Shown here: positions 42,073-64,000 of the stretch, in pieces
How the letters are laid out: each line of letters begins with the position of its first letter
Numbering within the stretch: the stretch's first letter is position 1
NCBI GenBank assembly: GCA_019635485.1
Contig: JAHBZL010000011.1
Location: 1-64,000, forward strand
Reading direction: 5' to 3'
Length of the DNA: 64,000 bases
Source: Piscinibacter sp.
Lineage (GTDB): Bacteria; Pseudomonadota; Gammaproteobacteria; Burkholderiales; Burkholderiaceae_C
Program-made: the position numbers and the translations under genes
Notes under the pieces: model-generated
Databases searched by the model: none
What the model was told of the DNA's origin: nothing
What the model saw: only the letters and a program-made list of their open reading frames with translations

Positions 42073-43059
42073 CTACACCAGCCCGGTGCGCTCGTGCGCC
42101 CGCGCGCGGATGACGTCGAAGTCGGCCGGCGGCCGGTGCAGGTCCAGCCGGCGGCCGGCCTTGGCGATCTGGCTCGGCACCTCGTGGCCGACCAGCGCCG
42201 GCAGGCGCCGGCTGGCCGCGAGCAGTTGCGCGAGGTCGACACCGGTGTCGTAGCCCATCAGCTCCAGCGCGTGCACGATCTCCTCGCTGCAGACGTTGCC
42301 GGTGGCGCCCGGCGCGTAGGGGCAGCCGCCGAGGCCGCCGACCGAGGCGTCGAAGCGGTCCGCACCGGCGTCGATCGCGGCCAGCACGTTGGCCAGGCCC
42401 AACCCACGCGTGTTGTGGAAGTGCAGCGTCAGCTCGGTGCCGGGCCAGCGGGCGCGGAACGCCTGCGTCAGCCGCGCCACCTGCGGCGGGTAGGCCATGC
42501 CGGTGGTGTCGCACAGCGTCACGCCGTGCGCGCCGAGCTGCTCGACGGAGCGCTCGCACCAGTCGAGCACGCTGCCTTCGTCGACCTCGCCCTCCATCGG
42601 ACAGCCGAACGAACACGACAGCGACACGTACACCGCCACGCCGCCCTGGCGCGCGATCGACGCCACCTCCGACAGCGCCGCGAACGACTGCTCGCGCGTC
42701 ATGCGCAGGTTCGCGAGGTTGTGGCTCTCGCTGGCCGACATCACCAGGTTCAGCTCGTCGGCCTTGGATTCGATTGCGCGCTCGGCGCCGCGCACATTGG
42801 GCACCAGCGCGCTGTAGACGACACCCGGCACACGCCGGATCTCGCGCAGCACGACCTCGGCGTCGCGCAGCGCGGGAATCGCCTTCGGCGAGACGAAGGC
42901 CGTGACCTCGATCTTCGCCGGCCCGGCGTCGGACAACGCGTCGACCAGTGCGATCTTATCGGCCGTCGGCACGAAGGTCTCCTCGACCTGCAGGCCGTCG
43001 CGCGGGCCGACCTCCTGCATGAAGACACGCCGGCCGGCGCCCTGCCACACCTCGTTCAT
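42073..43059 (-). CDS. hydroxymethylglutaryl-CoA lyase family enzyme
   Basis: A 328-residue DRE-TIM metallolyase. The metal and substrate motif QEVGPRDGLQVEE, the metal-binding LHFHNTRGLGLANV and the signature GGLGGCPYAPGATGN with the active-site Cys identify the HMG-CoA lyase branch. It would cleave a 3-hydroxyacyl-CoA such as HMG-CoA or citramalyl-CoA into acetyl-CoA and a ketoacid. It is coupled by ATGA to the CoA-transferase before it, suggesting activation of a free acid followed by cleavage. The exact substrate is open. Confidence 0.85.
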   Translation of the reverse strand: MNEVWQGAGRRVFMQEVGPRDGLQVEETFVPTADKIALVDALSDAGPAKIEVTAFVSPKAIPALRDAEVVLREIRRVPGVVYSALVPNVRGAERAIESKADELNLVMSASESHNLANLRMTREQSFAALSEVASIARQGGVAVYVSLSCSFGCPMEGEVDEGSVLDWCERSVEQLGAHGVTLCDTTGMAYPPQVARLTQAFRARWPGTELTLHFHNTRGLGLANVLAAIDAGADRFDASVGGLGGCPYAPGATGNVCSEEIVHALELMGYDTGVDLAQLLAASRRLPALVGHEVPSQIAKAGRRLDLHRPPADFDVIRARAHERTGLV

Positions 43060-44267
43060 GCCACCACCTTGCGGCCGCGCAGGGCGGCGATGTCCTGACT
43101 CGAGAAGCCGATCTCGCCGAGCACCGCGTCGGTGTCGTCGCCGACATGCGGGGCCGATGTGCGCACCTGGCCCGGCGTGCCCATCAGCTTGGGCACGATG
43201 CCGGGCACCGCGACGTCGTGGCCGTCGCGCGTGCGCTGCGTCAGCACCATCTCGCGGGCCCGGAAGTGCGGATCCTCGACGATGTCCTTGGCCGTGTAGA
43301 CGCGACCGGTCGGCACCTTGGCGGCGCCGAGCGTGGCGAGCACCGTGTCGACGCTGCGCGGACGGGTCCAGTCCTCGATGGCCGCGTCGATCTCGGCGAC
43401 CCGCGCGACGCGCCCGGCGTTGTCGGCCAGCGCCGGGTCGTTGCCGAGATCGTCGCGGCCGATGGCCTGCATCAGGCGCTTGAAGATGCTGTCACCGTTG
43501 CCGGCCACCAGCACGACGCCGTCGGTGCAACGGTAGGCGTTGGACGGCGCGATGCCCGGCAGCGCCGAGCCGGCCGGCTCGCGCACGGCGCCGAACGCGC
43601 TGTACTCGGGGATCAGGCTCTCCATCACGTTGAGCACGGCCTCGGTCAGCGCGACGTCGATCACCTGCCCCTGGCCGCCGTTGACCTTGCGATGGTAGAG
43701 CGCCGTCAGCACGCCGATCGTGCCGTGCAGCGCGGCCAGCGTGTCGCCGATCGAGATGCCGCAGCGCACCGGCACACGGCCTGGCTCGCCGGTCAGGTGG
43801 CGCAACCCACCCATGGCTTCGCCGATCGCGCCGAAGCCCGGCAGGTCGCGGTACGGCCCGGTCTGGCCGTAGCCGCTGATGCGCAGCATCACCAGGCCGG
43901 GGTTGAGCCGGCGGAGTTCCTCCCAGCCCAGACCCCAGCCTTCGAGCGTGCCGGGGCGGAAGTTCTCGACCAGCACGTCGGCCTGCGCGATCAGCCTGCG
44001 GGCGATGTCCTGGCCCTCGCGCTGGCGCAGGTCCAGTGCGATCGAGCGCTTGTTGCGCGACTGCACCTGCCACCACACCGAGGTGCCGTCCTGGATCAGC
44101 CGCCAGTTGCGCAGCGGGTCGCCGGCGCCGGGCGGCTCGATCTTGATCACGTCGGCGCCGAACTCGCCCAGCGTCTTGCCGACGAAGGGGCCGGCGATCA
44201 GCTGGCCCATCTCGATCACGCGCAGGCCGGCCAGCGCGCCGGGACTCAGGTTCATCGTGCTTTCCAT
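43056..44267 (-). CDS. CaiB/BaiF family CoA-transferase (class III)
   Basis: A 403-residue class III CoA-transferase with N-terminal GLRVIEMGQLIAGPFVGKTLGEFGADVIKIEPPGAGDPLR, DLRQREGQDIARRLIAQADVLVENFRPGTLEGWGLG and the catalytic-Asp region PGFGAIGEAMGGLRHLTGEP. It moves CoA between carboxylic acids, commonly succinyl-CoA to a dicarboxylate. With the lyase it could form a two-step pathway for a branched dicarboxylic or hydroxy acid. The start is at 44267, or at an ATG 12 bases downstream. It lies 40 bases after the Bug gene. Confidence 0.9.
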   Translation of the reverse strand: MESTMNLSPGALAGLRVIEMGQLIAGPFVGKTLGEFGADVIKIEPPGAGDPLRNWRLIQDGTSVWWQVQSRNKRSIALDLRQREGQDIARRLIAQADVLVENFRPGTLEGWGLGWEELRRLNPGLVMLRISGYGQTGPYRDLPGFGAIGEAMGGLRHLTGEPGRVPVRCGISIGDTLAALHGTIGVLTALYHRKVNGGQGQVIDVALTEAVLNVMESLIPEYSAFGAVREPAGSALPGIAPSNAYRCTDGVVLVAGNGDSIFKRLMQAIGRDDLGNDPALADNAGRVARVAEIDAAIEDWTRPRSVDTVLATLGAAKVPTGRVYTAKDIVEDPHFRAREMVLTQRTRDGHDVAVPGIVPKLMGTPGQVRTSAPHVGDDTDAVLGEIGFSSQDIAALRGRKVVA

Positions 44268-44307
44268 CGTGGTGTGCTCCCGCAGGGTCGGCGGCGTCGC
44301 CCGAAGC

Positions 44308-45282
44308 TCAGTCGATCGTCGCGCCGGAATCCTTGACGATCTTCGCCCACTTCGGCAGATCGTCGTGGATCACCGCCGCGAACTGCTCGGGCGTGCTCTT
44401 GCTCGGCTCGCAGCCGACGGTGGCGAGCTTCTCCTTCGCGTCCGCCGATTCGAGCGCCTTGGCCACCTCGGCCTGCAGCTGGGCGACCAGCGCCTTGGGC
44501 GTGCCGGCCGGCGCGAACAGGCCGTACCACGGCGTCGAGCCGAAGCCCTTGATCGTCTCGCCGATGGTCGGCACGTCGGGCAGCGCGCCGACGCGCTTCT
44601 CGTTGACGACGCCCAGCACCTTCAGCTTGCCGCCCTTGATGAACGAGATCGACGACGGCAGGCTCTGCACCGACACCTGCACCTGCCCGCCGACCAGGTC
44701 GGTGACCGCGGCCGAGGCGCCCTTGTACGGCACGTGCATCAGGTCGATGCCGGCGGCCTTGCCGAGCATCTCGCCGATCAGGTGGTTCAGCGTGCCGTTG
44801 CCGGCCGAGGCGATCGCGATCTTGCCCGGGTGCGCCTTCGCGTCGGCAATCAGCTCGGCGACGTTCTTCGGCGCATAGCCGTTGTTGGCCACCAGCACGT
44901 AGCCGGCGGTGGCGACCGGGGTGACGGGCTCGAAGTCCTTGACCGGGTCGAAGCCCGGGTTCTTGTACAGCGAGGGGTTGATCACGTGCGCGCTGTTGAC
45001 GGTCAGCAGCAGCGTGTAGCCGTCCGGCTTGGCCTTGGCCGCCGCCGCGGTGCCGATGTTGCCGCCCGCGCCGGGGCGGTTGTCGACGATGAACTGCTGG
45101 CCGGTCTGCTCGGTCATCTTCTGCGCGACGATGCGCGCGATCGCGTCGTTGGCGCCGCCCGGCGCCTGCGGCACGATCACCGTGACCGGCTTGCTCGGGT
45201 ACTTGTCGTTCGCGAAGGCCGGCGTGGCGGGCAGCGCGAACGAGGCCAGCAGCAGCGTGGCGGCGCGGCGGGTGAAGGGCAT
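44308..45282 (-). CDS. Bug/TctC-type periplasmic substrate-binding protein
   Basis: A 324-residue exported protein (signal peptide ending AFA-N) of the large betaproteobacterial Bug family. Markers are YPSKPVTVIVPQAPGGANDAIAR, GQQFIVDNRPGAGGNIGT, MHVPYKGASAAVTDLVGGQVQV and the WYGLFAPAGTPKALV block. Members bind carboxylates for TctAB-type transport or as signal receptors. No tctA or tctB is present. It precedes the CoA-transferase and lyase genes, so its ligand is plausibly their substrate. Confidence 0.9.
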   Translation of the reverse strand: MPFTRRAATLLLASFALPATPAFANDKYPSKPVTVIVPQAPGGANDAIARIVAQKMTEQTGQQFIVDNRPGAGGNIGTAAAAKAKPDGYTLLLTVNSAHVINPSLYKNPGFDPVKDFEPVTPVATAGYVLVANNGYAPKNVAELIADAKAHPGKIAIASAGNGTLNHLIGEMLGKAAGIDLMHVPYKGASAAVTDLVGGQVQVSVQSLPSSISFIKGGKLKVLGVVNEKRVGALPDVPTIGETIKGFGSTPWYGLFAPAGTPKALVAQLQAEVAKALESADAKEKLATVGCEPSKSTPEQFAAVIHDDLPKWAKIVKDSGATID

Positions 45283-45438: not shown

Positions 45439-46356
45439 TCAGCGCGACGGGGACGCGGCGTCCGGGGCGTCGACCAGGTGGTCGAGCAGCGCGCGCACCG
45501 GCCGGGCCAGTGCCAGCAGGTCGCGCGCGCCGATCAGCAGCTCGCGTTCGACCCAGCCGTCGGCCAGCTCGATGCGGTGCAGGCCCATCGAGCGCAGGTG
45601 CGGCTGCACGGCCGCGTCCGGCAGCACCGCGATGCCGAGGCCGGCGGCGACCATCTGGCACATCGCGTCGAAGCTGCGCACGTGGATGCGGATGCGCAGC
45701 CCCTTGCCGAGGTTGCTGGTCTCCAGCGCCAGGCGCTGCGCCAGCGAGGTGCCCTGCGACAGGCTGACGAAGTCGTGCTCCATCGCCTCGGCGAAGTCGA
45801 TGCGATGCCGCCCGGCCAGCGGGTGCTCGCGCGGCACCACCAGCACCAGCCGGTCGCGCCGGTAGCTCAGCGTCTGCAGCCCGAGCGTCGGCGTGCGCTC
45901 GGCGAAGATGCCGAGGTCGGCGCGGCCGTCCAGCACCGCCATCACCACCTCGTGGCTGTCCTGCTCCTGCAGCTGGATGCGGATGCCCGGGTGCCGCGCG
46001 GCGAAGCCGGCCAGCCCGGCCGGCAGGAACTGCGTGATCGCCGAGGTGTTGGCCCACAGCCGCACGATGCCAACCACGCCGCGCGCATGGTCCGACAGGT
46101 CCGCGGCGAGCTGGTCGACGTCGGCCAGGATGCGCTGCGCGTGCCGGTGCAGCGCCTGGCCCGCCAGCGTCAGCGTGACGCCGCGCGAATGGCGCTCGAG
46201 CAGTTCGGCCCCGACGGCCGCCTCGAGGTCGGAGATGCGCTTGCTCGCCGCCCCCACCGCCAGGTGCGCGAGCGCGGCGCCCTTGCTGATGCTGCCGGTG
46301 CGCACCACCAGCGCGAACAGCGACAGCGAGACAAGATCGAGGCGGTGCAGGTTCAT
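45439..46356 (-). CDS. LysR-family regulator coupled to mxaL
   Basis: A 305-residue LysR-type regulator with helix-turn-helix SLFALVVRTGSISKGAALAHLAVGAASKRISDLEAAVGAELLERHSRG, in which HLAVGAASKRI replaces the more usual HxxQPAVSxxI, and a substrate-binding domain. The ATG at 46356 overlaps the mxaL stop (ATGA), so it is translated with the mxa genes. The downstream gap carries a perfect T-N11-A palindrome before the Bug gene. It probably regulates that operon, and its co-expression with mxaL links the operon to methanol metabolism. Confidence 0.88.
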   Translation of the reverse strand: MNLHRLDLVSLSLFALVVRTGSISKGAALAHLAVGAASKRISDLEAAVGAELLERHSRGVTLTLAGQALHRHAQRILADVDQLAADLSDHARGVVGIVRLWANTSAITQFLPAGLAGFAARHPGIRIQLQEQDSHEVVMAVLDGRADLGIFAERTPTLGLQTLSYRRDRLVLVVPREHPLAGRHRIDFAEAMEHDFVSLSQGTSLAQRLALETSNLGKGLRIRIHVRSFDAMCQMVAAGLGIAVLPDAAVQPHLRSMGLHRIELADGWVERELLIGARDLLALARPVRALLDHLVDAPDAASPSR

Positions 46357-47357
46357 GCCCGCGATCCGGCATGTCCGCCGCCAGGCCGCGCGCGATGCGA
46401 CCAGCGCCAGCCCAGCCGGCGGGCGCCGGCAGCCAGGTACGGCGCGAGCAGCAGCAGCAGCGCCAGGCCCGCCAGCAGCGGGCGCAGGTCGGCGCGCACG
46501 GTCACCGGCCGGGCCAGCGCCGGATCGAGCAGCACCTCGCGCAGGCCCTGCTCGCCGCGCAGCCGGTGGTAGGCGAAGCCGCCTTCGGCCGCCAGCAGCT
46601 TCAGGTACGGCTCGCGCAGGCCGGACAGGTGCTCGGCGCCCGGCGTGGCGCCCAGCCCGACGGCTGGCGGCGCGGCGTCCTGCTCGACCATCGCCTCGCC
46701 GCCGACGCTGCCGCCACGCCCGAGGCTGCGCGGGTCGGTCTGCAGCACTTCGTCCGCCGCCCACAGGCCGAGCGGCCGGCCGACCGGGTCGAACTTCGGG
46801 ATCGGCGACGGTCGGGTGTCGCCGACGCCGACCAGCACGCCGGGCACCTCGCCGGCCTTGTCATCGAAGGCCGGCCGGTGGCGCGGGTTCAGCGGCGGCG
46901 CCTCGTGGCCGTCGGTGACGAACACCAGCGAGGGCACGCCCGGCAGCGCCTGCACGATCAGCCGCGCGCTGTGCAGCCCCTTGGCCACCTCGCTGTTGCC
47001 GGACCAGGCCATCGTGCCGTCGATCGCCGCCAGCGAGCTGCGCAGTTCGGCGCGGTTCGCGCACACCTCGACCGGCGCGAACAGCAGGTAGCTGCGGTAC
47101 TCGGTGAAGATCGCCAGGCCGAGCTTCGATCCGCAGGGCAGCTCCTGCAGCGCGTCGCGCAGCGCCTGCTTCGCGAAGGCCAGGCGCGACACCGGCCGGC
47201 CGTCCAGCAGCGTGTCGGTGACGTTCATGCTCTGCGTGATGTCGAGCACGACCACATGCTCGAACAGGCGGCGCGGCAGCGGCAGGCGCGGCTCGAGGAA
47301 GGTGGCACCCAGCGCGAGCGCCGCGGCCGCCAGCCAGAGGCGCCCGTCCAGCCTCAT
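46353..47357 (-). CDS. mxaL: MxaL, von Willebrand A-domain methanol dehydrogenase maturation protein
   Basis: A 334-residue membrane protein with an N-terminal helix, a VWA domain whose metal site is DITQSMN with a downstream Thr/Asp pair (FVTDGHEAPP), and a C-terminal transmembrane helix (LLAGLALLLLLAPYL). MxaL works with MxaA, MxaC, MxaK and MxaRS to insert the metal in methanol dehydrogenase. It starts 19 bases after mxaK. Identification rests on the VWA motif and its place in the RSACKL order. Confidence 0.85.
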   Translation of the reverse strand: MRLDGRLWLAAAALALGATFLEPRLPLPRRLFEHVVVLDITQSMNVTDTLLDGRPVSRLAFAKQALRDALQELPCGSKLGLAIFTEYRSYLLFAPVEVCANRAELRSSLAAIDGTMAWSGNSEVAKGLHSARLIVQALPGVPSLVFVTDGHEAPPLNPRHRPAFDDKAGEVPGVLVGVGDTRPSPIPKFDPVGRPLGLWAADEVLQTDPRSLGRGGSVGGEAMVEQDAAPPAVGLGATPGAEHLSGLREPYLKLLAAEGGFAYHRLRGEQGLREVLLDPALARPVTVRADLRPLLAGLALLLLLAPYLAAGARRLGWRWSHRARPGGGHAGSRA

Positions 47358-47376: not shown

Positions 47377-47922
47377 TCACGGCAGCCCCGGCGAGTGGCC
47401 GCGCATGGTGGTTGCCGCCCGCTCGGCGTCGCGCCGCGTGTCGGGCATCGACTCGTCCTCGCCTTCCGGGTCGGGCACCAGGCGCTGCGCGCGCTCGAGG
47501 TTGTAGCGCGCGTCCCAGTCGCCCGGGTCCTGCCGCAGCAGCTCGCGGTAGTGCTCCTTGGCGAGTTCGATCAGCGCCAGCGCCTGGCCCGGGTGCTGCG
47601 CCTCGCGCAGTTCGATCGCCTGGCGCAGCAGCAGGTTGGCGCTGTTGAAGCGCGCCGCGCGGCCGAACGCCGGGTCCTCCTGCAGCGTGCCGTAGCGGGC
47701 CAGCGCCGCCTCGCCGGCGCCGCTGGCGGCCTGCGCGTAGGCGAGCGCGAAGCGCAGGCCGGCCGGTGCGTCGGCCGCGTCGCCGCCCTGCCCGCCGGCG
47801 GCGATGCGCGCGTCGAGCTGCCGTTCGCGCTGCAGCTGCCACGCGTCGTGGGCAGCCAGCAGCGCCAGCAGGCCCAGCGCGGCGAGCAGCATGCGGCCGA
47901 GGCGGCGCCGGTTCAGTGCCAT
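47377..47922 (-). CDS. mxaK: MxaK, methanol dehydrogenase maturation protein
   Basis: A 181-residue protein with one N-terminal helix (about 9-24) and a periplasmic part with TPR-like helices (ELAKEHYRELLRQDPGDWDARYNLERAQRLVPDPE). MxaK proteins have this size and architecture and are always found between mxaC and mxaL. It overlaps the mxaC end by 10 bases. The assignment depends on gene order as well as sequence. Confidence 0.78.
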   Translation of the reverse strand: MALNRRRLGRMLLAALGLLALLAAHDAWQLQRERQLDARIAAGGQGGDAADAPAGLRFALAYAQAASGAGEAALARYGTLQEDPAFGRAARFNSANLLLRQAIELREAQHPGQALALIELAKEHYRELLRQDPGDWDARYNLERAQRLVPDPEGEDESMPDTRRDAERAATTMRGHSPGLP

Positions 47923-48953
47923 CGCCGCAGCTCCATCAGGCGCGCCCCGAGCAGCAGCAGCACGAGCACCAGCGCCACGGCCTGCGCCCAGGGCGCGAGC
48001 TCGCGCCGCGGCACCAGGTCGTGAGTCGTGATCGGCAGATTCTCGAGCCGGTTGACGTCCGCGATCGCCTGCTCGAGCGCCTCCGACGTGCCGGCTTCGT
48101 AGGAGCGGTACGGCGTCTCGAGCGATTCGAAGAACTGGTGCAGCAGCTTCTCCGGCACGCTCTCGGCGGCGGCGCCGGACTCGCCCTCGGCCAGCGTCAG
48201 CCCGGGGCTGTTGGCCGAGCGCAGGTAGAGCCAGTAGATCGCGACGCGGTGGCGGCGCAGCAGCTGGGCCAGGTGTTCGCGGCTGTCCGGGTCGAGCCGG
48301 TCGCCGCCGTCGGAGACCAGCAGCACGATGCGCGAGCCGGTGTAGGCGCGCCCCTCCCACAGCGACAGCGCCGACTCCAGCGCGCGGCCGATGTGCGTTT
48401 CCGACAGGCCGCGCCCGACGTTGCCGGCGGCGATCGCGGCCTGGATCATCTCCTGCCGCGCGGTGAAGTCGAGCACGCGCATCGGCAACGTGCTGAACGC
48501 CACCAGCGCGAAGCGGTCCTGCGGGCGCTGCGCGGTGAAATCGGCCAGCAGCTGGCGCGCCACCTTGCCCTTGGCCTCGCGCAGGCGCGCCGGTGCCTGG
48601 CTGAAGTAGTAGTCCAGCGCCTCCGGGCCGGTGCCGCGCACGCCCTTGGGCGGCCGGCCCGGCGCGAAACCCTGGTCCATGCTGCGGCTGCGGTCCAGCA
48701 CCAGCACGATCTCCGCGCCGCGGCCGACCCGCTCCACGGTGTACTCGGGCCGGTAGGGCCCGGCGAGCGCGAACACCAGCGTCGCGATCGCGAGCGCGGC
48801 CAGCGCGCGCAGCGCGATCCCGAGCGCCGTCGAGGCCCGGTCGCGCGGCGCGAACGCCAGCCAGGCGTTCGCCAGCGGCGCACCGGAGGAGACGAGCAGC
48901 GGCAGCACGGCCAGCGGCAGCAGCAGCAACAGCCAGGGGTCGTCGAAGCGCAT
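47913..48953 (-). CDS. mxaC: MxaC, von Willebrand A-domain maturation protein
   Basis: A 346-residue protein with two N-terminal helices, a VWA domain with the MIDAS motif VLVLDRSRSMDQG and Thr/Asp in LLVSDGGDRLDPDS, and a C-terminal transmembrane helix (AVALVLVLLLLGARLM). It resembles BatA-type proteins. In methylotrophs MxaC acts with MxaA, K and L in metal insertion into methanol dehydrogenase. Its ATG shares one base with the mxaA stop (TGATG). Confidence 0.85.
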   Translation of the reverse strand: MRFDDPWLLLLLPLAVLPLLVSSGAPLANAWLAFAPRDRASTALGIALRALAALAIATLVFALAGPYRPEYTVERVGRGAEIVLVLDRSRSMDQGFAPGRPPKGVRGTGPEALDYYFSQAPARLREAKGKVARQLLADFTAQRPQDRFALVAFSTLPMRVLDFTARQEMIQAAIAAGNVGRGLSETHIGRALESALSLWEGRAYTGSRIVLLVSDGGDRLDPDSREHLAQLLRRHRVAIYWLYLRSANSPGLTLAEGESGAAAESVPEKLLHQFFESLETPYRSYEAGTSEALEQAIADVNRLENLPITTHDLVPRRELAPWAQAVALVLVLLLLGARLMELRRWH

Positions 48954-53169: not shown

Positions 53170-53235
53170 GCCGCCTGGTCCCCGCGCGGGTCGCGGAACC
53201 ATAGCACGCAGCAGGCGCGCGCCGGATCGAGGCCC

Positions 53236-55611: not shown

Positions 55612-56241
55612 TCAGACCGACACCAGGCCGTGCCGGATCGCCAGGTGGGCCAGCGCCGCCGAGGTCGCGACGCCGAGCTTTTCCTTGATCACGGTCTGGT
55701 GGTTGGAGACGGTCTTCGCGCTCAGGCCGAGCGCACCCGCGCACTGCGCCGGCGACTGCCCCTGCGCGAGCAGGCGGAACACCTCGAACTCGCGCTCGCT
55801 CAAGGAAGCCAGCCGCGCGCCCTCGCCGAGCGGGTCGGGCCGCAGCAGCGTCGGCGACAGCTCGGCGCCCAGGTAGCGGCGCCCGGCGTGCAGCGCGTGC
55901 ACGGCATCTACCAGCCGGCCGGGTTCACTCGCCTTGGTCAGGTAGCCGCGTGCGCCGGCCTCCAGCGCGCGCCGCACCATGCCGTCGCTCTCGTGCATGC
56001 TGAAGACGAGGATGGGCGCGGTCGGGGCCCGCGCGCGCACGCGCCGGATCAGCGTGACGCCGCCGCCGGGCATCGCGAGATCGGTGACGAGCACGTCCGG
56101 GCCGGTCGCGACGAAGCCGGCGAAGGCGTCGTCCGCGTCGGCCGCCTCGTGCACGACCTGGATGTCGCCGGCCTGCTCGAGCAGGCGCCGGTAGCCGGTG
56201 CGCACCACCGGGTGGTCGTCGGCCAGCTGGACGCGGATCAC
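55612..56241 (-). CDS. NarL/FixJ-type (LuxR family) response regulator
   Basis: A 209-residue response regulator. The receiver has QLADDHPVVRTGYRRLL, phospho-Asp in VLVTDLAMPGGG and Lys in YLTKASEPG. The C-terminal LuxR-type helix-turn-helix reads LSEREFEVFRLLAQGQSPAQCAGALGLSAKTVSNHQTVIKEKL. It starts with GTG at 56241, overlapping the kinase stop (GTGA). Regulators of this class control PQQ alcohol dehydrogenase genes in other proteobacteria. Likely targets here are xoxF, the ABC operon and the TonB receptor. Confidence 0.88.
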   Translation of the reverse strand: MIRVQLADDHPVVRTGYRRLLEQAGDIQVVHEAADADDAFAGFVATGPDVLVTDLAMPGGGVTLIRRVRARAPTAPILVFSMHESDGMVRRALEAGARGYLTKASEPGRLVDAVHALHAGRRYLGAELSPTLLRPDPLGEGARLASLSEREFEVFRLLAQGQSPAQCAGALGLSAKTVSNHQTVIKEKLGVATSAALAHLAIRHGLVSV

Positions 56242-57185
56242 GCCGGCACCTCCGCGACGGCCTGGCGCACGTCCAGCGGCAGCCGCAAGGTCAGGCGCAG
56301 CCCCTGGCCCGGCGCACCGGCGAGTTCGAGCTCGCCACCGAGCGCGGCGGCCCGCTCGGCGGCGCCGAGCAGGCCCAGGCCGCGGCGCGGCGCGACGACG
56401 TCCATGCCGCAGCCGTCGTCGCTCGCCTCCAGTTCCAGGCGTCCGTCGCGGCGGCGCAGGCGCAGCCGGACGGTCGTCGCGTGCGCGTGCCGCACCGCGT
56501 TCGTCAGCGCCTCCTGCGCGACGCGGTAGACCGCGACCTCGAGTGCGTCGGGCAGCGCCGCCATGTCGGCCGCACCCTCGGGCAGAAACAGGCAGGCCAC
56601 GCCGCTGCGCAGTTCCCAGCCCTCGCACAGCGCCTGCAGCGCCGCGACCAGGCCCAGTTCGTCGAGCTGCGCCGGCCGCAAGCGCTGCAGCAGCTCGCGC
56701 ACCGACTGGTACAGGGCCTGCGCCGACGCATCGGCGCGCGCTGCGGCCGCCAGCATGCCGGCGCGGTCCCCTTCCGCGCATTGGCGCAGCACGGCAGTCT
56801 CGATGCGCAGCGCCGTGCAGCGCTGCCCCATCTCGTCGTGCAGTTCGCGCGCCAGCGCGGCGCGTTCGGACTCCTGCAGCGCGATCAGGCCCTGAGCGAG
56901 CGCGCGGTTGTGCTCCAGCAGCTCGTCGGCGCGGCGCTGCGCGGCTTCGCGCGCCCGCAGCGCCGCGTTGGTGTCGCGGCGGCGCCGGAACGCGTACCAC
57001 GCCATGCCGCAGGCCAGCACCAGCAGCGACAGCGGGATCTCGTCGGCCTGCCAGCGCTCGTAGCGCGCCAGCCAGCCGAAGTAGCGCTCGTGCAGCTCGA
57101 AGCCGACCGACAGCGCGTAGGCCGCGAGCGTCGCCAGCACGACGACGGCGAGGTCGCGCCGCCCGCGGACCTCAGGGGACGGCAC
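56238..57185 (-). CDS. NarX-type sensor histidine kinase with two membrane helices
   Basis: A 315-residue kinase with two N-terminal transmembrane helices (about 12-29 and 50-66) enclosing only some 20 periplasmic residues, then a coiled coil and a HisKA_3 domain with the phospho-His in ERAALARELHDEMGQRCTALRIE. The HATPase has AQEALTNAVRHA, DDGCGMD and GLGLLGAAERA. Such a short sensor loop suggests that a separate protein detects the ligand. The Bug gene upstream overlaps this gene by 14 bases, making it the obvious partner. The response regulator follows by GTGA overlap. Confidence 0.88.
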   Translation of the reverse strand: MPSPEVRGRRDLAVVVLATLAAYALSVGFELHERYFGWLARYERWQADEIPLSLLVLACGMAWYAFRRRRDTNAALRAREAAQRRADELLEHNRALAQGLIALQESERAALARELHDEMGQRCTALRIETAVLRQCAEGDRAGMLAAAARADASAQALYQSVRELLQRLRPAQLDELGLVAALQALCEGWELRSGVACLFLPEGAADMAALPDALEVAVYRVAQEALTNAVRHAHATTVRLRLRRRDGRLELEASDDGCGMDVVAPRRGLGLLGAAERAAALGGELELAGAPGQGLRLTLRLPLDVRQAVAEVPA

Positions 57186-58164
57186 GGCTCAGCCCCATGC
57201 GTTCGACGTTGCGCCGCTCACGCGCGTACTCCTCGCGCAGCCAGGCCGCGTAGTCGGCCGGTCCGCGGTAGTCGAGTTCCTGGTCGTACTTGGCGATCTC
57301 CTGCACGAAGACCGGATCGAGCATCGCCTTGCGGAAGGCGTCGTGCAGGACCGTCACGATGGCCGGCGGCAGGCCGCGCGGCCCGCCCAGCCCCCAGGGC
57401 GACATCGCGACGATCGGGAAGCCCAGCTCCTTCAGCGTCGGCACGGTCGGCCAGCGCCGCGACCGCTGGGCCGCGAAGGTGGCCAGCAGGCGCAGCTGGC
57501 CGCCGTCGACGAAGGGCGCGAAGCCGGTCGAGTTGACGCCGGCCATCACCTGCGCGGTCTCGACCGCCAGCGTCAGCTCGGACGTGCCCTTGTACGGCAC
57601 GTGGATGTACTTCAGCCCGCGCCGGCTGAACAGCTCCTCGAGCACCACGTGCGGGGTGGTGCCGACGCCGTTGGTCGCGATGCTCAGCTGCCCCGGCCGC
57701 GCGCGCGCGAACGCGAACAGGTCCTCCAGCTTGCGGAACGGGCTGGCCGCGGGCACCAGCACGCCGAAGGTGACGCCGGAGATCTGGATGATCGGCGTCA
57801 CGTCGCGCACCGGGTCCCACAGCACCTTCTGCGTGTAGGGCACGCGCAGCACCGGCTGCGGGATCTGCGCGATCGTGTAGCCGTCGGGCTCGGCGTTCTG
57901 CAGGATCGGCATCGCCAGCGTGCCGCCCGCGCCGCCACGGTTCTCGATCAGCACGCGCTGGCCGAGGTGCGCCCCGGCCAGCTCGGCCAGCACGCGCAGC
58001 GAGATGTCGGTGGCACCGCCGGCCGCCCAGGGCACCCAGAGCGTGATCGGCTTGCTCGGGAACGGGGCCTGCGCGAAGACCCGCCCCGGCGCCGCCGCGA
58101 GCGCGGCGGACGCGAACAGCAGCGCGCGTCGGCGCAGCGCGGCCGGTGGGAGCGTCGTCTTCAT
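57172..58164 (-). CDS. Bug/TctC-type binding protein, coupled to a sensor kinase
   Basis: A 330-residue exported Bug protein with a signal peptide (ends VFA-Q), FPSKPITLWVPWAAGGATDISLRVL, GQRVLIENRGGAGGTLAMPIL and IHVPYKGTSELTLAVETAQVMAGV. No TctAB permease is present. Its start overlaps the ABC permease stop (ATGA) and its end overlaps the kinase start by 14 bases, so it is translated between transporter and kinase. Some Bug proteins, such as BctC, signal to a histidine kinase; the arrangement suggests that role. It could also be a binding protein borrowed by the ABC system. Confidence 0.88.
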   Translation of the reverse strand: MKTTLPPAALRRRALLFASAALAAAPGRVFAQAPFPSKPITLWVPWAAGGATDISLRVLAELAGAHLGQRVLIENRGGAGGTLAMPILQNAEPDGYTIAQIPQPVLRVPYTQKVLWDPVRDVTPIIQISGVTFGVLVPAASPFRKLEDLFAFARARPGQLSIATNGVGTTPHVVLEELFSRRGLKYIHVPYKGTSELTLAVETAQVMAGVNSTGFAPFVDGGQLRLLATFAAQRSRRWPTVPTLKELGFPIVAMSPWGLGGPRGLPPAIVTVLHDAFRKAMLDPVFVQEIAKYDQELDYRGPADYAAWLREEYARERRNVERMGLSRAVP

Positions 58165-59096
58165 CCGCCGCCTCCGCGTTTCGTCAGCCCGCCAAAGCCG
58201 CGCTGCGGGTCGTAGCCCCAGCAGGCCACGCCGAAGAACAGCAGCCCGCAGCCGATCACCACCCACGGCGCCAGCCCCGGGTCCTTGCCGTACAGCGCGA
58301 AGCGGATCCACTCGACGGCGTAGGTGAACGGGTTGAAGCGGGCCAGCTGGTAGACCCACTCCGCGCCCGACTCCTCAAGCTTCCACAGCGGGTACAGCGC
58401 GGTGGACAGGAAGTACATCGGGAAGATGACGAAGTTCATCGTGCCGGCGAAGTTCTCCAGCTGCTTGATGTGCACCGACAGCAGCAGCCCCAGCGCGCCC
58501 AGCATCAGCGCGCCGGCCACCAGCGCCAGCAGCGCGTGCAGCGCGTCCAGCGTCAGCAGCGGCAGCGTGGTGCCGATGGCCAGCGCCACCAGCACGAAGG
58601 CGAGCGCCTGCAGCGCCGACAGCAGCGCGGTCGCGCACAGCTTGCCGAACAGCAGCCAGGCGCGCGGCAGCGGCGCCGTCAGCAGCAGGCGCATCAGCCC
58701 CATCTCGCGGTCGTAGACCATCGCCAGCGAGGACTGCATGCCGTTGAACAGCAGCACCATGCCGACCAGCCCCGGCGCGATGTACACGTCGTACGGGATG
58801 TAGGTGTCGTAGGGCTCGACGATCGCGACCCCGAACACGTTGCGGAAACCGGCAGCGAACACGGCCAGCCAGAGCAAGGGCCGCACCAGCGCCGAGACGA
58901 GCCGGCCGGTCTGCTGCGAGAACTTGAGCAGCTCGCGCAGCACGATCGCGCGCAGCGCCTGCAGGGCATGCAGGACGGCCCCTCGCTCGCGGCGTACCGC
59001 GAGCGATCCCCCCAGGGGATGCGGGCCGGCCTGGGGCGGCCCGGCGCCCGGCCCGCGCGCCCGGTCGCGGGTCCGATCTACGGTGTCGCCTTGCAT
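58161..59096 (-). CDS. ABC-2 type permease of a PQQ-dehydrogenase-associated ABC system
   Basis: A 311-residue ABC-2 permease with six membrane segments. The conserved LLWLAVFAAGFRNVFG, REMGLMRLLLTAPLPRAWLLFGKL, AGTMNFVIFPMYFLSTALYPLWKL and FNPFTYAVEWIRFALYG are characteristic of this subfamily (PedC/LutF-like). The first 40 residues are Arg/Gly/Pro-rich and poorly conserved, so the true start may lie inside; no better codon was found. It overlaps the binding-protein gene by 19 bases and the Bug gene by ATGA. Confidence 0.82.
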   Translation of the reverse strand: MQGDTVDRTRDRARGPGAGPPQAGPHPLGGSLAVRRERGAVLHALQALRAIVLRELLKFSQQTGRLVSALVRPLLWLAVFAAGFRNVFGVAIVEPYDTYIPYDVYIAPGLVGMVLLFNGMQSSLAMVYDREMGLMRLLLTAPLPRAWLLFGKLCATALLSALQALAFVLVALAIGTTLPLLTLDALHALLALVAGALMLGALGLLLSVHIKQLENFAGTMNFVIFPMYFLSTALYPLWKLEESGAEWVYQLARFNPFTYAVEWIRFALYGKDPGLAPWVVIGCGLLFFGVACWGYDPQRGFGGLTKRGGGG

Positions 59097-60250
59097 GCCT
59101 TCTCCGGCGCGTCCGCGCCCAGCGTGTCGAGCACGTTGCTCGGGTGCAGGATGCCGTCCACCGGCGCCTGCGCGATCACGCCCTGCCCGTCGGTCAGCAG
59201 CAGCGGCTGGCGCAGCTGGCGGTCCCAGGCGCGGAAGCTCATCGCCACGCCCTTGGAACCGTCCAGCGGGAGCTTGGGCAGCGCCTGCGCCCAGGCCGCG
59301 GCCGGGCCCTTCGGCGCGCCCGCCGCCAGCGCCACCAGCGCCTTGCCGGCCAGCCAGGCGGTCCAGTCCTGCGCCGTCATCGGACGCTTGGCAGCGCGCG
59401 CGAAGCGGCGCGACACCTGCGGCGCACCATAACGCTCGAACTGCGCGTGCCAGGCCAGCGCCACCAGCCCGGCATCGCCGACCACCGGGCGCGGCAGCGC
59501 GGTGCGGTAAGGCAGCTGACGGGCGAACTCGCCGTCGCTGTCCACCACCCAGACGGCGTCGTAGCTGGCACCGCCCGTGAGCAGCAACGGATTGGCCAGG
59601 TCACGCTCGCGCGGATCGGCCGAGAGCTTGAACGGCTTGCTGCCGACCACCTGCAGCCCGTAGCGCCGGATCGACGCCTGGGCGGTCGCCGCCCGGGTCT
59701 GGTCCGCCGCGCTCGGGCCGACGAGCAGCAACAACTTGCTCCATTTGCGTGACACCAGGTACTGCGCCAGCGCGTCGCTGCGCATGCGTTCGCTCGGCAT
59801 CAGGTGGAACAGCCGCGCGCGGCAATCGGCGCCGCGCAGCCGGTCGGCGGCCTCGCTCAGGTTCAGCACCGGGATGCGCACGGCGTCGGTCACGGCCAGC
59901 AGCCAGCCGGCCGGCAGGTCGGCCAGCAGCACCGCCGCCCCGCCCTTTTCGGCCGCCTGGGCGGCGCTGCGCGCGGCCTCCAGGGAAGCAGCGGCCTGCG
60001 TGGCGAGCGCCACCTCGGCCTGCGCCGCCTCCAGTTCGAACCGGCCGTCCTCCAGCGCCAGCTGCAACGCCTGGTCGAGCGGGCCACCCGGGTGACCCAG
60101 GTAGGCGCGCTCGACCTGCGTGCGCTCCATTCGCGGATCGTCGGCCGGCACCAGCAGCGTCGCCTTCAGCGGCAGCGCCGCGGCCGGCGCCAGGCATCCG
60201 GCCAGCAGCACCGCCAGGAAGGCACGGGAGGCCCTCACCCGACCCCTCAC
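59078..60250 (-). CDS. periplasmic binding protein of the PQQ-associated ABC system
   Basis: A 390-residue exported protein resembling branched-chain amino acid binding proteins (type I fold), with a signal peptide around the lipobox-like LLAGC and LKATLLVPADDPRMERTQVERAYLGHPGGPLDQALQLALEDGRF, GWLLAVTDAVRIPVLNLSEAADRLRGADCRARLFHLMPSERMRSDALAQYL. These match the PedA1/LutA family found only beside PQQ alcohol dehydrogenases. GTG at 60250 overlaps the propeller stop (GTGA); a second GTG at 60238 is possible. Confidence 0.8.
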   Translation of the reverse strand: MRGRVRASRAFLAVLLAGCLAPAAALPLKATLLVPADDPRMERTQVERAYLGHPGGPLDQALQLALEDGRFELEAAQAEVALATQAAASLEAARSAAQAAEKGGAAVLLADLPAGWLLAVTDAVRIPVLNLSEAADRLRGADCRARLFHLMPSERMRSDALAQYLVSRKWSKLLLLVGPSAADQTRAATAQASIRRYGLQVVGSKPFKLSADPRERDLANPLLLTGGASYDAVWVVDSDGEFARQLPYRTALPRPVVGDAGLVALAWHAQFERYGAPQVSRRFARAAKRPMTAQDWTAWLAGKALVALAAGAPKGPAAAWAQALPKLPLDGSKGVAMSFRAWDRQLRQPLLLTDGQGVIAQAPVDGILHPSNVLDTLGADAPEKACKATP

Positions 60251-61215
60251 TCGACCACCACCACGCCGTAGGGCACGCGCCCGACCGGGATGCTCTTGAT
60301 CGCCTTGGCGCCGGCCACGTCGACCACCGTGACGTCGTCGGACAGGCCGTTGACCACCCACAGGCGCGCCTCGGCCTTGTCGAGCGCGACGTTCCAGGCC
60401 CGCCGCCCCACCAGGACGAGGTCGGTCACCTTGCGCGCCGCGACGTCGACGAAGGCCACGTGGTTGGCCCGGCCCAGCGCGACGAAGGCACGCTTGCCGT
60501 CCTTCGTCAGCGTGATGCCGACCGGCGAGATGTCCTCGGCGCGCGCGCCCTTCACGGTGAACCGCAGCGTCGCGACCACCTCGTGGCTGGCGGTCGAGAC
60601 GACACTCACGCTCGCGTCCAGCTCGTTCGTGACCCAGAGTTCCTTGCCGTCCGGCGTGATCGCCATGCGGCGCGGCCGCTTGCCGACCTTGACGTTCCTG
60701 ACCACCTTGCCCTGCGCCACGTCGATCACGTGCACGAGGCTGGCGACCTCGGAGGTCACGTACAGCGTCTTGCCGTCCGCGCTGACCTTCACGCCCTCCG
60801 GTTCCTGGCCGACCTTGATCGACTTCAGCACCTTGCCGGTGGCGGCATCGACGAAGCTGGCCTCGGCCTCGTCCTCGTTGGAGACGTAGATCGTCTTGCC
60901 GTCCGGCGACAGGTCGAAGGCCTCCGGCTCGTCGCCCAGCGGCAGGCGCCGCACCGCCTTGGCCGTGGCCGGATCGATCACGTCCGCCGCGTTGGAATCG
61001 GTGCAGGCCACCATCAGCAGCCCGTCGGGCATGCGCTGGAGGTGGCGGGCGCGCTTGCAGGTCGGCACAGTGCCCTTGACGGTCAGCGTCTGGGTGTCGA
61101 TCAGCGTCAGCGCATCGTCCTTCTCGCTGCTGACCCAGGCGGTGCCCTGGGCGGTAGCCAGGGCCGAGCAGCCGGCCAGGCCGAGGGCGGCGGCGATGCG
61201 GCGGGGCGTCTTCAA
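60247..61215 (-). CDS. PQQ-associated YVTN beta-propeller protein
   Basis: A 322-residue exported protein made of repeated blades with the YVTN pattern (TIYVSNEDEAEASFVDAATGKVLKSI, TLYVTSEVASLVHVIDVAQGKVVRNV, ELWVTNELDASVSVVSTASHEVVATL), the PQQ-dependent catabolism propeller family (PedA2/LutB-like). The frame requires a TTG start at 61215, which has AAGGAGA 8 bases before it; no ATG or GTG alternative fits. The role is unknown, but it is conserved with this ABC system. Confidence 0.85.
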   Translation of the reverse strand: MKTPRRIAAALGLAGCSALATAQGTAWVSSEKDDALTLIDTQTLTVKGTVPTCKRARHLQRMPDGLLMVACTDSNAADVIDPATAKAVRRLPLGDEPEAFDLSPDGKTIYVSNEDEAEASFVDAATGKVLKSIKVGQEPEGVKVSADGKTLYVTSEVASLVHVIDVAQGKVVRNVKVGKRPRRMAITPDGKELWVTNELDASVSVVSTASHEVVATLRFTVKGARAEDISPVGITLTKDGKRAFVALGRANHVAFVDVAARKVTDLVLVGRRAWNVALDKAEARLWVVNGLSDDVTVVDVAGAKAIKSIPVGRVPYGVVVVE

Positions 61216-61247: not shown

Positions 61248-61988
61248 TCAGCTCGTGCGGGCGATGAAGCCGGCCTCGAGCGTGGCGCCGCCCAGCGCCG
61301 TCGTGACCTCGGCGGGCGCGCCGTCGGCCAGCAGCCGGCCCTTGTGCAGCACCAGCACACGGTCGGCATCGGCCGCCTCCTCGACCCAGTGGGTGGCCCA
61401 CAGCACCGTGACGCCGCGCTCGCGGACGTCCGAATGCAGCGCGGCCAGCAGGTCCTGGCGCGACTTCGGGTCGAGTCCGACGGTGGCCTCGTCCATCAGC
61501 AGCACCGCGGGTTGGTGCAGCTGGGCCCGGATCAGTTCCACCTTGCGCCGGTTGCCGCCCGACAGCTCGCGCACCTTGCGGCCGAGCTGGTCCGAGAGTC
61601 CGAAGCGCGCGGCGCCGGCCGCGATGCGCTCGTCGGCCAGGGCACCGGGCAGGCCGTGCAGGTCCGCCTGGAACCGCAGGTTGCGCCGGATGCTGAGGTC
61701 GAGGTCCAGCGAGATCTGCTGGAACACCACGCCGATGTGGCGCAGCGCCGCCGACGACGCGTGGCGCAGCGAGTAGCCGGCCACCTCGACCTCGCCCTCG
61801 TCGGCGGCGAACAGGCCGGTCAGCACCTGGAACAGCGTCGACTTGCCCGCGCCGTTCGGCCCGAGCAGCGCCACGAAGCTCGCGGGCGCGAGATCGATCG
61901 ACAGCGACTGCAGCGCGGCCTGCTTGCCGTAGCGCTTGGTCAAGGCCGAGATCCGCAGCATGGCCGGGGCGCTCACGGGTTCGCTCAT
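61248..61988 (-). CDS. ATP-binding protein of the PQQ-associated ABC system
   Basis: A 246-residue ABC ATPase with Walker A LLGPNGAGKSTLF, Q-loop GVVFQQISLDLDLS, the signature ELSGGNRRKVELIRAQLHQP, Walker B VLLMDEATVGLD and the H-loop WATHWVEEA. VFQQISLDLDLSIRRNLRFQADLHG is typical of the PedB/LutE subgroup. It is the first gene of the minus-strand array, divergent from xoxF with 560 bases between. It forms the transporter with the permease at 58161-59096. Confidence 0.9.
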   Translation of the reverse strand: MSEPVSAPAMLRISALTKRYGKQAALQSLSIDLAPASFVALLGPNGAGKSTLFQVLTGLFAADEGEVEVAGYSLRHASSAALRHIGVVFQQISLDLDLSIRRNLRFQADLHGLPGALADERIAAGAARFGLSDQLGRKVRELSGGNRRKVELIRAQLHQPAVLLMDEATVGLDPKSRQDLLAALHSDVRERGVTVLWATHWVEEAADADRVLVLHKGRLLADGAPAEVTTALGGATLEAGFIARTS

Positions 61989-62548
61989 CGTTCGGTCGGT
62001 GCAGGCGTGCGCAAGATGTCGTGGACGATAACGGAGGTGGACGAGCAAGCGTCGGGCCCGGCCACGGCCCGCGATTGAAGGCGGTCGTGCGCGGCTCGGC
62101 AAGCGGGTGGATTCCCGCGTCGGGTCTTTGTCGGGCGGCTCGTTTCGACACGCCGGCCGTCGATGAAACACTCTGTGCCGATGTGGATGCAACGCTTTTG
62201 GCGCACCCTGTCGCCAAGCGTTTTCGGCGCGCCCGCGCGGGTGCCGCAGGTGTCGTTCGTGCCCCGTGCTTTCCCTATGAGGGCCATCCCTAGTGACAGG
62301 CCACGAGCCGGCGCGGCGAGCCCGACTTTGAGGGGAAACCCATAGGCCTGCCGGTCGGCCGCCGTCAGGTCTCGCGCGTTGAGCACGGACCATGCGCCGC
62401 CCTGCAGCAACCCGGGCCGGCGGCGCGAACAAACCGGGCGCAGAAATTGCGGTTGCGGGGTCGCCGAGTTCATGAGGCCTCGTTCGGCAGCGACGTTCGC
62501 GACGCTGCCGCGTGGCCGGGCTCCGGTCACTTCAACAAGGAGACATCG
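61989..62548. promoter_or_regulatory. divergent regulatory region between the ABC operon and xoxF
   Basis: No gene was recognised in these 560 bases. Notable elements are an inverted repeat CGCTTTTGGCG (62193-62203) / CGCCAAGCG (62212-62220) with 8 bases between, a CCCTATGAGGG palindrome preceded by TTT (62270-62283), and GGGGAAACCC (62332-62341) resembling the GGGAA/TTCCC element before the TonB receptor. AAGGAG at 62537-62542 is the xoxF ribosome-binding site. No clear sigma-70 promoter was found, fitting activator-dependent expression. Confidence 0.45.
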
Positions 62549-64000
62549 ATGCGAATTCCTGGGCAATCCGGTCGGCACGCCTGGTCGCGGGTGGGGCTGG
62601 CTCTTCTCGCGCTGCCGGGCCTGGCGCTGGCGAACGCGGACGTCGAGAAGAACATCGCCAACGACAAGAACTGGGCGATGCAAGCGGGTGACATGTACAA
62701 CCAGCGCTACAGCAAGCTCAAGCAGATCAACACCGGCAACGTCGGCAAGATGCAGGTGGCGTGGACCTTCTCCACCGGCGTGCTGCGCGGCCACGAGGGC
62801 TCGCCGCTGGTGATCGACGGCACGATGTACCTGCACTCGCCGTTCCCGAACAAGGTCTTCGCGATCGACCTCGACACGCAGAAGATCAAGTGGAAGTACG
62901 AGCCGAAGCAGGACCCGGCGGTGATCCCGCAGATGTGCTGCGACACGGTGAACCGCGGCCTGGCGTACGCCGAAGGCAAGGTGATCCTGCAGCAGGCCGA
63001 TTCGATGCTGGTCGCGCTCGACGCCAAGACCGGCAAGATGGTCTGGAGCACGAAGAACGGCGACCCGAAGCTCGGCGCGGTGAACACCAATGCGCCGCAC
63101 GTCTTCAAGGACAAGGTCATCACCGGCATTTCCGGCGGCGAGTGGGGCGTGCGCGGCTTCATCGCGGCGTACAACCTCTCCGACGGCAAGCTGGCGTGGA
63201 AGGGTTACAGCGTCGGCCCGGACAACGAGATGCTGATCGACCCGGACAAGACCATGACCTGGACCGACGGCAAGCTCGCGCCGGTCGGCAAGGACTCGTC
63301 GCTCAAGACCTGGCAGGGTGACCAGTGGAAGATCGGCGGCGGCACGACGTGGGGCTGGTACAGCTACGACAAGGCGCTGAACCTGATGTACTACGGCACC
63401 GGCAACCCGTCGACCTGGAACCCGGCGCAGCGCCCCGGTGACAACAAGTGGTCGATGACCATCTTCGCGCGCGACGTCGACACCGGCATGGCCAAGTGGG
63501 TCTACCAGATGACGCCGTACGACGAGTGGGACTTCGACGGCATCAACGAGATGATCCTGGCGGACATCGACGTCAAGGGCAAGGCGACCAAGGCGCTGGT
63601 GCACTTCGACCGCAACGGCTTCGCGTACACGATGGACCGCACCAACGGTGCTCTGCTCGTGGCCGAGAAGTACGACCCGAAGGTGAACTGGGCCACGCAC
63701 GTCGACATGAAGACGGGCCGCCCGCAGGTGGTCGCGAAGTACTCAACGGCCAAGAACGGTCCTGACGTCAACACCAAGGGCATCTGCCCGGCGGCGTTGG
63801 GCAGCAAGGACCAGCAGCCGGCCGCGTTCGACCCCGAGACCAAGCTCTTCTACGTGCCGACCAACCACGTCTGCATGGACTACGAGCCGTTCAAGGTCGA
63901 GTACACCGCCGGACAGCCGTACGTCGGTGCGACGCTGTCGATGTTCCCGGCCCCGGGCAGCCACGGCGGCATGGGCAACTACATCACGTGGAATGCCGGC
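62549..64000 (+). CDS. xoxF: XoxF, lanthanide-type PQQ methanol dehydrogenase (3' end beyond window)
   Basis: A periplasmic quinoprotein oxidising methanol, with electrons passed to a c-type cytochrome. 484 of about 600 residues are visible. The signal peptide ends in ALA-N. The vicinal disulfide Cys130-Cys131 stacks on PQQ. Metal ligands are Glu198 (SGGEWG), Asn286 ([10 protein letters not shown]), the catalytic Asp328 and the extra Asp330 in DEWDFDG. The DFD pattern, instead of D-x-A in MxaF, marks lanthanide binding. [19 protein letters not shown] and [12 protein letters not shown] match clade XoxF5. The partner genes xoxG and xoxJ would lie beyond the edge. Confidence 0.93.

Follow-up and report, generated by a model that had tools for sequence, protein, structure and literature searches.

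Two ATP-binding cassette (ABC) systems have been tied to lanthanide-dependent alcohol dehydrogenases that use pyrroloquinoline quinone (PQQ). In the available text on Pseudomonas putida, deletion of PedA1A2BC raises the lanthanum needed for growth with the dehydrogenase PedH about 100-fold and leaves growth with PedE unchanged (PMC6839425), and in that on Methylorubrum extorquens, lut mutants fail or grow slowly on methanol with lanthanum (PMC7391723). A separate gene cluster, mxaRSACKL, is described in the portion of PMC4109929 at hand as essential for the classical methanol dehydrogenase, and the same source reports that Methylotenera strains with XoxF as their only methanol dehydrogenase keep it. 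Here we describe a 64,000-base stretch of DNA (the window; positions 1–64000 of the 120,987-base contig JAHBZL010000011.1) from a Piscinibacter sp. draft genome of 5.0 Mb that is 84% complete, in which a Lut/Ped-type lanthanide locus is joined to xoxF and mxaRSACKL. The unexpected part of this locus is Bug1, a periplasmic binding protein of the TctC/Bug family. We consider it probable that the conserved core of the locus provides metal acquisition and enzyme maturation for a lanthanide-dependent methanol dehydrogenase, with Bug1 as a regular carrier and with a caspase-fold gene and a gene tail as local additions.

Genes were called from codon usage and assigned to families by Pfam and NCBIfam profile matches. 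Nineteen minus-strand genes run without a break from 61988 down to 42073, divergent from xoxF (Table 1). From 61988 they encode the ABC ATPase, a beta-propeller, a substrate-binding protein, the permease, Bug1, a histidine kinase, a response regulator, a TonB-dependent receptor and a caspase-fold protein, followed by mxaR, S, A, C, K and L, a LysR regulator, a second Bug protein (Bug2), a CaiB-type coenzyme A (CoA) transferase and a protein resembling 3-hydroxy-3-methylglutaryl-CoA lyase (HMGL). A previous interpretation of the stretch made from its letters and open reading frames (the sequence-only reading) had recognised this run, its divergence from xoxF and the families of its members, all of which are borne out, mxaA and mxaK by alignment only; its count of 20 genes was one too many, and its own gene list also sums to 19. 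Its statement that most genes overlap depends on the choice of start codon, as 8 of the 18 junctions overlap with the called starts and 10 of 18 with the alternative starts 59096 and 57185, which lengthen the two genes concerned.

A second aspartate two residues past the catalytic one, in a WDFD-type motif, marks lanthanide enzymes. XoxF carries it (WDFDG), and the sole other PQQ dehydrogenase in the genome at E ≤ 1e-60 (L206) also has a lanthanide-type motif. MxaI (PF02315) had no match in any of the 8 genomes of the genus (the present genome being 84% complete), and 1 match in 149 relatives. The ATPase, propeller and permease all score over their NCBIfam cut-offs. Because XoxF is of the WDFD type, the transporter genes are of the PedA1A2BC type and MxaI was not found, the core supports lanthanide acquisition and XoxF maturation, a known kind of system, and the Ped/Lut and lanthanide assignments of the sequence-only reading agree with both NCBIfam scores and motif.

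Comparisons drew on three sets of genomes (8 from the genus, 149 wider relatives and 399 from the family) and two sets of loci. The 27-locus set consists of stretches around the permease in relatives, onto which the window proteins were mapped, and the 80-locus set of loci found by a profile search with Bug1. The two locus sets overlap (for example, L033 and L118 come from one genome, as do L043 and L124) and are never summed. The ATPase, propeller, binding protein, permease, Bug1, regulator, TonB receptor, mxaRSACKL and divergent xoxF occur together in 8/8 genus genomes, two of which are limited by contig ends (the contig of G005 stops within mxaK, and the locus of G006 is spread across two contigs). 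Five of them (G001, G002, G003, G004 and G007) retain the full order from xoxF and the ATPase gene through the TonB receptor to mxaRSACKL, with the kinase optional, although several core genes of G004 match in two pieces. Across the 80-locus set, xoxF diverges from the ATPase gene at 27 of 28 XoxF loci. The sequence-only reading had staked itself in part on gene order being conserved in at least some relatives, and it is conserved; the single gathered locus that it proposed holds for the core, whereas the caspase and tail are absent from those relatives' loci that are long enough to show them.

From this arrangement we infer a route in which the TonB receptor would import a lanthanide chelate through the outer membrane. 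The PedA1-type binding protein, the PedA2-type propeller and Bug1 would then hold or pass on a metal-bearing ligand in the periplasm, and the ATPase and PedC permease would move the ligand across the inner membrane. MxaRSACKL may help to assemble holo-XoxF in a cell where MxaI was not found. For Bug1 itself, the ligand would most likely be a lanthanide-carboxylate or lanthanophore complex, possibly PQQ.

In this bacterial family, the ABC system has Bug1 as a dedicated partner and regular extra member. The search of the 149 relatives returned two tiers of Bug1 matches, and in the 399 family genomes, among the matches listed, 53 of the 57 close copies (at least 57% identity) share the strand of PedC and are no more than 6 kb from it; the E-value limits of this tally (1e-75 and 1e-98) exclude weaker copies. 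The four exceptions comprise two genomes with Bug1 and PedC on different contigs, one of these two genes being at a contig end (G394 and G344), one with Bug1 about 33 kb from PedC (G012) and one, 87% complete, with no PedC among the matches listed (G196). Reciprocally, 52 of 60 close PedC loci (at least 70% identity) have a close Bug1 nearby, compared with 1 of 25 PedC loci below 70%; 12 of these 25 carry a more distant Bug protein (51–55% identity), on the opposite strand in 11 of the 12. PedC (at least 55% identity) is present at 75 loci of the 80-locus set, always on the strand of Bug1, and missing at L128, L153, L171, L191 and L192; at L153 and L191 the contig starts with Bug1. XoxF of at least 80% identity occurs at 28 of the 80 loci and the remainder carry different PQQ dehydrogenases. 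Close copies are found in Variovorax, Rhizobacter, Ideonella, Sphaerotilus and Piscinibacter strains. We found no description of a link between Bug/TctC proteins and lanthanides or xoxF in the listed titles and abstract openings of open-licence PMC papers or in the available text of PMC11931723 and PMC12997753. Bug1 provides a defined candidate for a periplasmic carrier.

The xoxF gene of Rubrivivax gelatinosus IM 151 (L128) diverges directly from the propeller, binding protein, Bug1, kinase, regulator and TonB receptor genes. The ATPase (71% identity) and permease (80% identity) lie together on another contig (L246) and neither is at the xoxF locus; no propeller, binding protein or Bug1 was found at L246 within the 15 kb read, on a contig that begins at the ATPase. 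The propeller, binding protein and Bug1 thus stay with XoxF as a set, in an arrangement seen in one genome that may include an assembly effect. At 32 of 48 Bug1 loci without XoxF, judged by gap size, 2.4–2.9 kb separates PedC from Bug1. The gap genes at two of these loci (L124:7015-10004 and L044:11443-13974) encode ExbB/MotA-like and ExbD-like proteins (the latter by eye), a small membrane protein and a DUF3108-like lipoprotein, and possibly form a dedicated proton-driven motor module.

The best solved relatives of Bug1 include a terephthalate-binding protein (the best, E 4e-37), 2dvz, which we take to be BugE, and Bug27. In a hand-read alignment, the Bug27 pocket residues G21, T22, C136, Q142, C165, T183 and N228 fall on Bug1 A51, T52, N165, P171, T194, N211 and S255/P256, so that one of the seven quinolinate-pocket residues, T22 (T52 in Bug1), is kept, in a comparison that leaves out a phenylalanine and residues at 74 also named in the available text of PMC11452294. 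A Bug27/69-type quinolinate binder was rejected on this count. Bug1 orthologues differ from 20 paralogues at several positions that include two of these, N165 being present in 100% where 19/20 paralogues have threonine, and N211 in 94% where 20/20 have aspartate. None of the seven positions is acidic, which, on alignment, disfavours a bare trivalent lanthanide ion and favours an anionic organic ligand or chelate. TctA and TctB had no match among the 19 array genes, the rest of the genome lying outside that search. We take Bug1 to be a putative periplasmic carrier whose ligand would be anionic, either a lanthanide chelate or PQQ. A further proposal, which seems to us possible but short of probable, is that lanthanide quinoprotein systems in this Burkholderiales family have a fifth component that has gone unrecognised, namely Bug1, which would carry lanthanide-carboxylate or lanthanide-PQQ in the periplasm and load the dehydrogenase together with PedA1 and the propeller. 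If Bug1 is such a loader, the R. gelatinosus split suggests that the loading module and the ABC engine can be separated.

The same proteins could in principle handle PQQ and not metal, with the TonB receptor recapturing the cofactor as PqqU does and Bug1 binding this pyridine-containing tricarboxylate. PqqU/YncD is indeed the best solved relative of the receptor (E ~3e-21), Bug27 and Bug69 bind quinolinate according to the available portion of PMC11452294, and PQQ dehydrogenases accompany Bug1 at its loci. Yet the receptor scores 112 bits against a cut-off of 1200 for the PqqU NCBIfam model, and the PqqU contacts Q84, Y99, Q121 and R536, named in the accessible part of PMC12124388, align by hand with F, L, V and A, so that 0/4 are kept (R304, R365 and K274 fall outside the alignment). 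We rejected PqqU identity on these two grounds. The Bug27 ligand residues are mostly lost in Bug1, the contig carries its own pqqC together with pqqB, pqqD and pqqE recognised by inspection, and the P. putida ABC mutant spares PedE, which is also PQQ-dependent (PMC6839425, as excerpted). The metal-site aspartate is present in 28/28 XoxF and 20/22 readable other PQQ dehydrogenases of the 80-locus set (one unreadable fragment left out, and L193, with an unusual YDYD, counted as lanthanide-type), compared with 12/20 dehydrogenases hand-picked, and so not random, away from Bug1 loci (Fisher p 0.03, from hand-tallied counts and with phylogeny ignored). This excess tips the balance modestly towards lanthanide, as against PQQ alone, as the common theme, and we regard a purely PQQ-directed role as unlikely. 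The receptor, present at 44 of the 80 Bug1 loci at 35% identity or more, is a lanthanophore-receptor candidate, to which gene context lends the label LutH. A TonB receptor gene matching the one in the window at 34% identity also comes after the canonical mxaFJGIRSACKLD operon at L238 (G114:C11:78500-95000).

Control of the locus offers another role for Bug1, as a periplasmic sensor subunit that reports lanthanide or methanol status to the adjacent kinase–regulator pair. Bug proteins that act on sensor kinases are known, such as Bordetella BctC. The kinase adjoins Bug1 and has no sensor-domain match, with two hydrophobic segments (one found by scan, one by eye) around a loop of about 20 residues. 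The kinase is, however, present only in G000, G003 and G005 and gone from 5/8 genus genomes, in which Bug1 and the regulator are retained; it occurs at only 24 of 80 Bug1 loci (at least 35% identity), and mxaRSACKL stands between Bug1 and kinase in Variovorax loci L157 and L176 and in L135. The losses and separated loci weaken the case for Bug1 as a kinase co-receptor, and we find such a role decidedly unlikely. Since the kinase is lost while the regulator is kept, it is also unlikely to be the sole lanthanide sensor; the sensing element of the sequence-only reading is right that a pair is present here, but the link of the kinase to the locus is loose. In the five kinase-less genomes the best kinase match is 38–44% identical and sits at other loci. 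The regulators retained there (G001, G002, G004, G006 and G007) may be orphans, or may receive phosphate from another kinase, for example that of the pair at contig 77457-79450. A candidate regulatory site is the conserved block at 62162-62195 between xoxF and the ATPase gene, which is common to Rhizobacter and some Variovorax loci. Scored over whole loci, its 14-base core is matched with 0–2 mismatches in 14 of 17 loci, 11 of them exact; the best matches in the other three have 3 (L166) or 4 mismatches (L141 and L144) and lie at other places.

The six mxa genes of the window match, in order, the canonical mxaFJGIRSACKLD operon of G114 (L238), a genome with MxaI. Genes resembling mxaC (E ≤ 1e-15) occur in 22 of the 149 genomes, namely 20 of 27 with XoxF (at least 74% identity) and 2 of the 122 others (G114 and G090); mxaC tracks XoxF, not MxaI. 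Being tied to XoxF in genomes without MxaI, the cluster argues that MxaRSACKL mature methanol dehydrogenases generally, beyond the calcium enzyme, a role foreshadowed by the XoxF-only Methylotenera strains (PMC4109929, in part). The opposing view, that mxaRSACKL is the remnant of a lost MxaFI system, can appeal to its described need by the classical enzyme (PMC4109929, same portion) and to its absence from some XoxF genomes. Against it, the cluster is kept in 8/8 genus genomes, none with an MxaI match, follows XoxF over 149 genomes, is retained in XoxF-only Methylotenera, and adjoins xox genes in more than one layout, since in G060 and G066, which lack MxaI, it lies beside xoxFGJ in convergent orientation, unlike that of the window. 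A remnant therefore strikes us as very unlikely.

The array has at least three layers: the core is conserved, the caspase is an insertion of one gene (51853-53202), and the tail comprises four genes (42073-46356); the kinase is optional. No caspase match above 40 bits was found in the 27-locus or the 80-locus set, in which 8 and 12 loci, respectively, are informative in having both the TonB receptor gene and mxaR. The gap between these two genes is 124–137 bases in the closest relatives; in G004, G006, G053 and G085 it reaches 0.5–1.8 kb, yet holds no caspase. Relatives of the caspase sit at other loci and are at most 51% identical. The caspase, which the sequence-only reading took for an unusual extra member, was therefore rejected as part of the array. 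Its His and Cys motifs are present, as judged by eye, and a second caspase-fold copy (49%) is encoded at G000:C72.

The LysR–Bug2–CaiB–HMGL tail is likewise absent from all six loci of the 27-locus set that extend at least 2.5 kb past mxaL (G001, G002, G003, G004, G007 and G053, reaching 2.5–4.7 kb) and from the four such loci of the 80-locus set, which reach more than 4 kb; 9 of the 13 mxaL loci in the latter set end within 1.7 kb of mxaL, too short for the tail. CaiB and HMGL had no match at relatives' loci, Bug2 had only distant Bug matches there (at most 35%), and in G003 cbbR and cbbL follow mxaL, about 1.5 kb on. Of the two Bug proteins counted as members by the sequence-only reading, Bug1 is a conserved partner, whereas Bug2 belongs to the tail and was rejected with it as a second lanthanide-binding protein. 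Both the caspase and the tail look like local additions to the core, with no apparent link to methanol oxidation. That all 19 genes constitute a single unit for lanthanide acquisition and control is highly improbable, as the shared strand, the short gaps, the 4-base overlap of LysR with mxaL and the caspase ATG at 53202, 33 bases past the TonB receptor stop, are set against these absences, the cbb genes past mxaL in G003 and the distant caspase relatives elsewhere.

Several observations weigh against a lanthanide-dedicated core with Bug1 as its carrier. The PedA1-type binding protein scores under its NCBIfam cut-off (358 vs 414 bits), and serine occupies the metal position in two dehydrogenases of the 80-locus set and one of the 27-locus set. 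Counts from the 80-locus set are no neutral sample, its loci having been chosen by Bug1. Eight of the 60 close PedC loci have no Bug1 nearby among the matches listed, and Bug1 also stands beside PQQ dehydrogenases other than XoxF, so it is not methanol-specific. XoxF lies about 26 kb from the ABC locus in G066, more than 0.8 Mb away in G065 and G067, and on another contig in G053, G059, G060, G081 and G088. G020 has XoxF and no PedC match, and three genomes with lanthanide-type PQQ dehydrogenases (G128, G144 and G146) have no PedC match at E ≤ 1e-20, reflecting either another importer or a miss by the search. Finally, mxaC had no match in 7 of the 27 XoxF genomes (G020, G065, G112, G118, G125, G137 and G144), so that MxaRSACKL is not obligatory.

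Table 1. Features of the xoxF locus in the window, listed from the ATPase gene to the end of the minus-strand run, then the divergent side.
Feature	Position	Strand	Evidence and remarks
ABC ATPase, PQQ_ABC_ATP / PedB-LutE type	61248..61988	-	TIGR03864, 320 bits vs cut-off 302
YVTN beta-propeller, secreted, PedA2 type	60247..61215	-	TIGR03866, 329 bits vs cut-off 287
Periplasmic substrate-binding protein, PedA1/LutA type	59078..60211	-	TIGR03863, 358 bits, below cut-off 414; position kept in relatives
ABC-2 type permease, PedC/LutF type	58161..59096	-	TIGR03861, 356 bits vs cut-off 241; alternative start 58943
Bug1, TctC/Bug periplasmic binding protein	57172..58164	-	PF03401, E 5e-68; linkage to PedC
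Histidine kinase (HisKA_3), no separate sensor domain	56238..57185	-	Domain match; alternative start 57140
NarL/LuxR-type response regulator	55612..56241	-	Domain match
TonB-dependent receptor, lanthanophore-receptor candidate	53236..55503	-	PF00593/PF07715
Caspase-fold (C14) protein, secreted	51853..53202	-	PF00656, E 8e-44
mxaR (MoxR AAA ATPase)	50709..51731	-	Domain match and alignment with canonical mxa operon
mxaS (DUF58)	49861..50712	-	Domain match and alignment with canonical mxa operon
mxaA	48953..49864	-	No Pfam/NCBIfam match; 29% to mxaA position of canonical operon, E 4e-21
mxaC (VWA)	47913..48956	-	Domain match and alignment with canonical mxa operon
mxaK	47377..47922	-	No Pfam/NCBIfam match; 35% to canonical operon, E 9e-13
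mxaL (VWA)	46353..47357	-	Domain match and alignment with canonical mxa operon
LysR regulator, first tail gene	45439..46356	-	Domain match
Bug2 (TctC), tail	44308..45282	-	Domain match
CaiB-type CoA transferase, tail	43056..44267	-	PF02515, E 6e-126
HMG-CoA-lyase-like protein, tail	42073..43059	-	NF004283, 331 bits vs cut-off 246
Divergent promoter region	61989..62548	.	Conserved block 62162-62195 (intergenic alignment)
xoxF, cut by window end	62549..64000 (ATG 62549; ends contig 64369)	+	TIGR03075, 719 bits vs cut-off 480; WDFDG

Beyond the window, xoxF is followed by a cytochrome gene in the xoxG position and by xoxJ (TIGR03871, over cut-off). Further downstream lie genes for a SoxYZ-like carrier (TIGR04557, over cut-off) and a zinc-metallohydrolase-like protein (below cut-off). 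The pqqC gene (over cut-off) is on the minus strand of the same contig beyond xoxFGJ, and pqqB, pqqD and pqqE, with fae/fhc-like genes, were recognised from inspection of translations only at contig 73–90 kb. At the opposite end of the array, a ribulose-1,5-bisphosphate carboxylase/oxygenase operon with cbbR adjoins the tail at window positions 34799-42069 (by inspection). The pair cbbR–cbbL lies inside the fetched stretch at 12 of the 28 XoxF loci of the 80-locus set, all from Variovorax, making methanol oxidation and the Calvin cycle neighbours at these loci.

Among described systems, PedA1A2BC of P. putida KT2440 has the same four kinds of subunit near a lanthanide-type PQQ dehydrogenase, and, unlike the locus in the window with its TonB receptor, is described without a LutH-like receptor (PMC6839425 and PMC12997753, available text). 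The words "TctC" and "Bug" do not appear in the accessible text of PMC12997753, nor "TctC" and "tripartite tricarboxylate" in that of PMC6839425. The P. putida ped cluster contains ethanol-type dehydrogenases, and no mention of mxaRSACKL was found in these same portions (PMC6839425, PMC12997753). The lut cluster of M. extorquens AM1 likewise combines an ABC transporter with a TonB receptor, is required for lanthanum-dependent methanol growth and shares its chromosome with xox and pqq genes; that strain differs in also having MxaFI and lanmodulin, with lut and xox about 40 genes apart by locus tag, and the lut gene table, in the portion of PMC7391723 at hand, names no Bug protein. Bug27 and the terephthalate-binding protein belong to the same family as Bug1 (PF03401), which differs from such Bug/TctC proteins in being tied to an ABC-2 type transporter, with no TctA or TctB among the array genes. 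Closest to the maturation genes is mxaRSACKL of the Methylophilaceae, which has the same six genes in the same order, also in XoxF-only strains. There, according to the available part of PMC4109929, the extra mxa clusters keep no strictly conserved chromosomal place, whereas the cluster in the window is joined to the ABC genes and xoxF.

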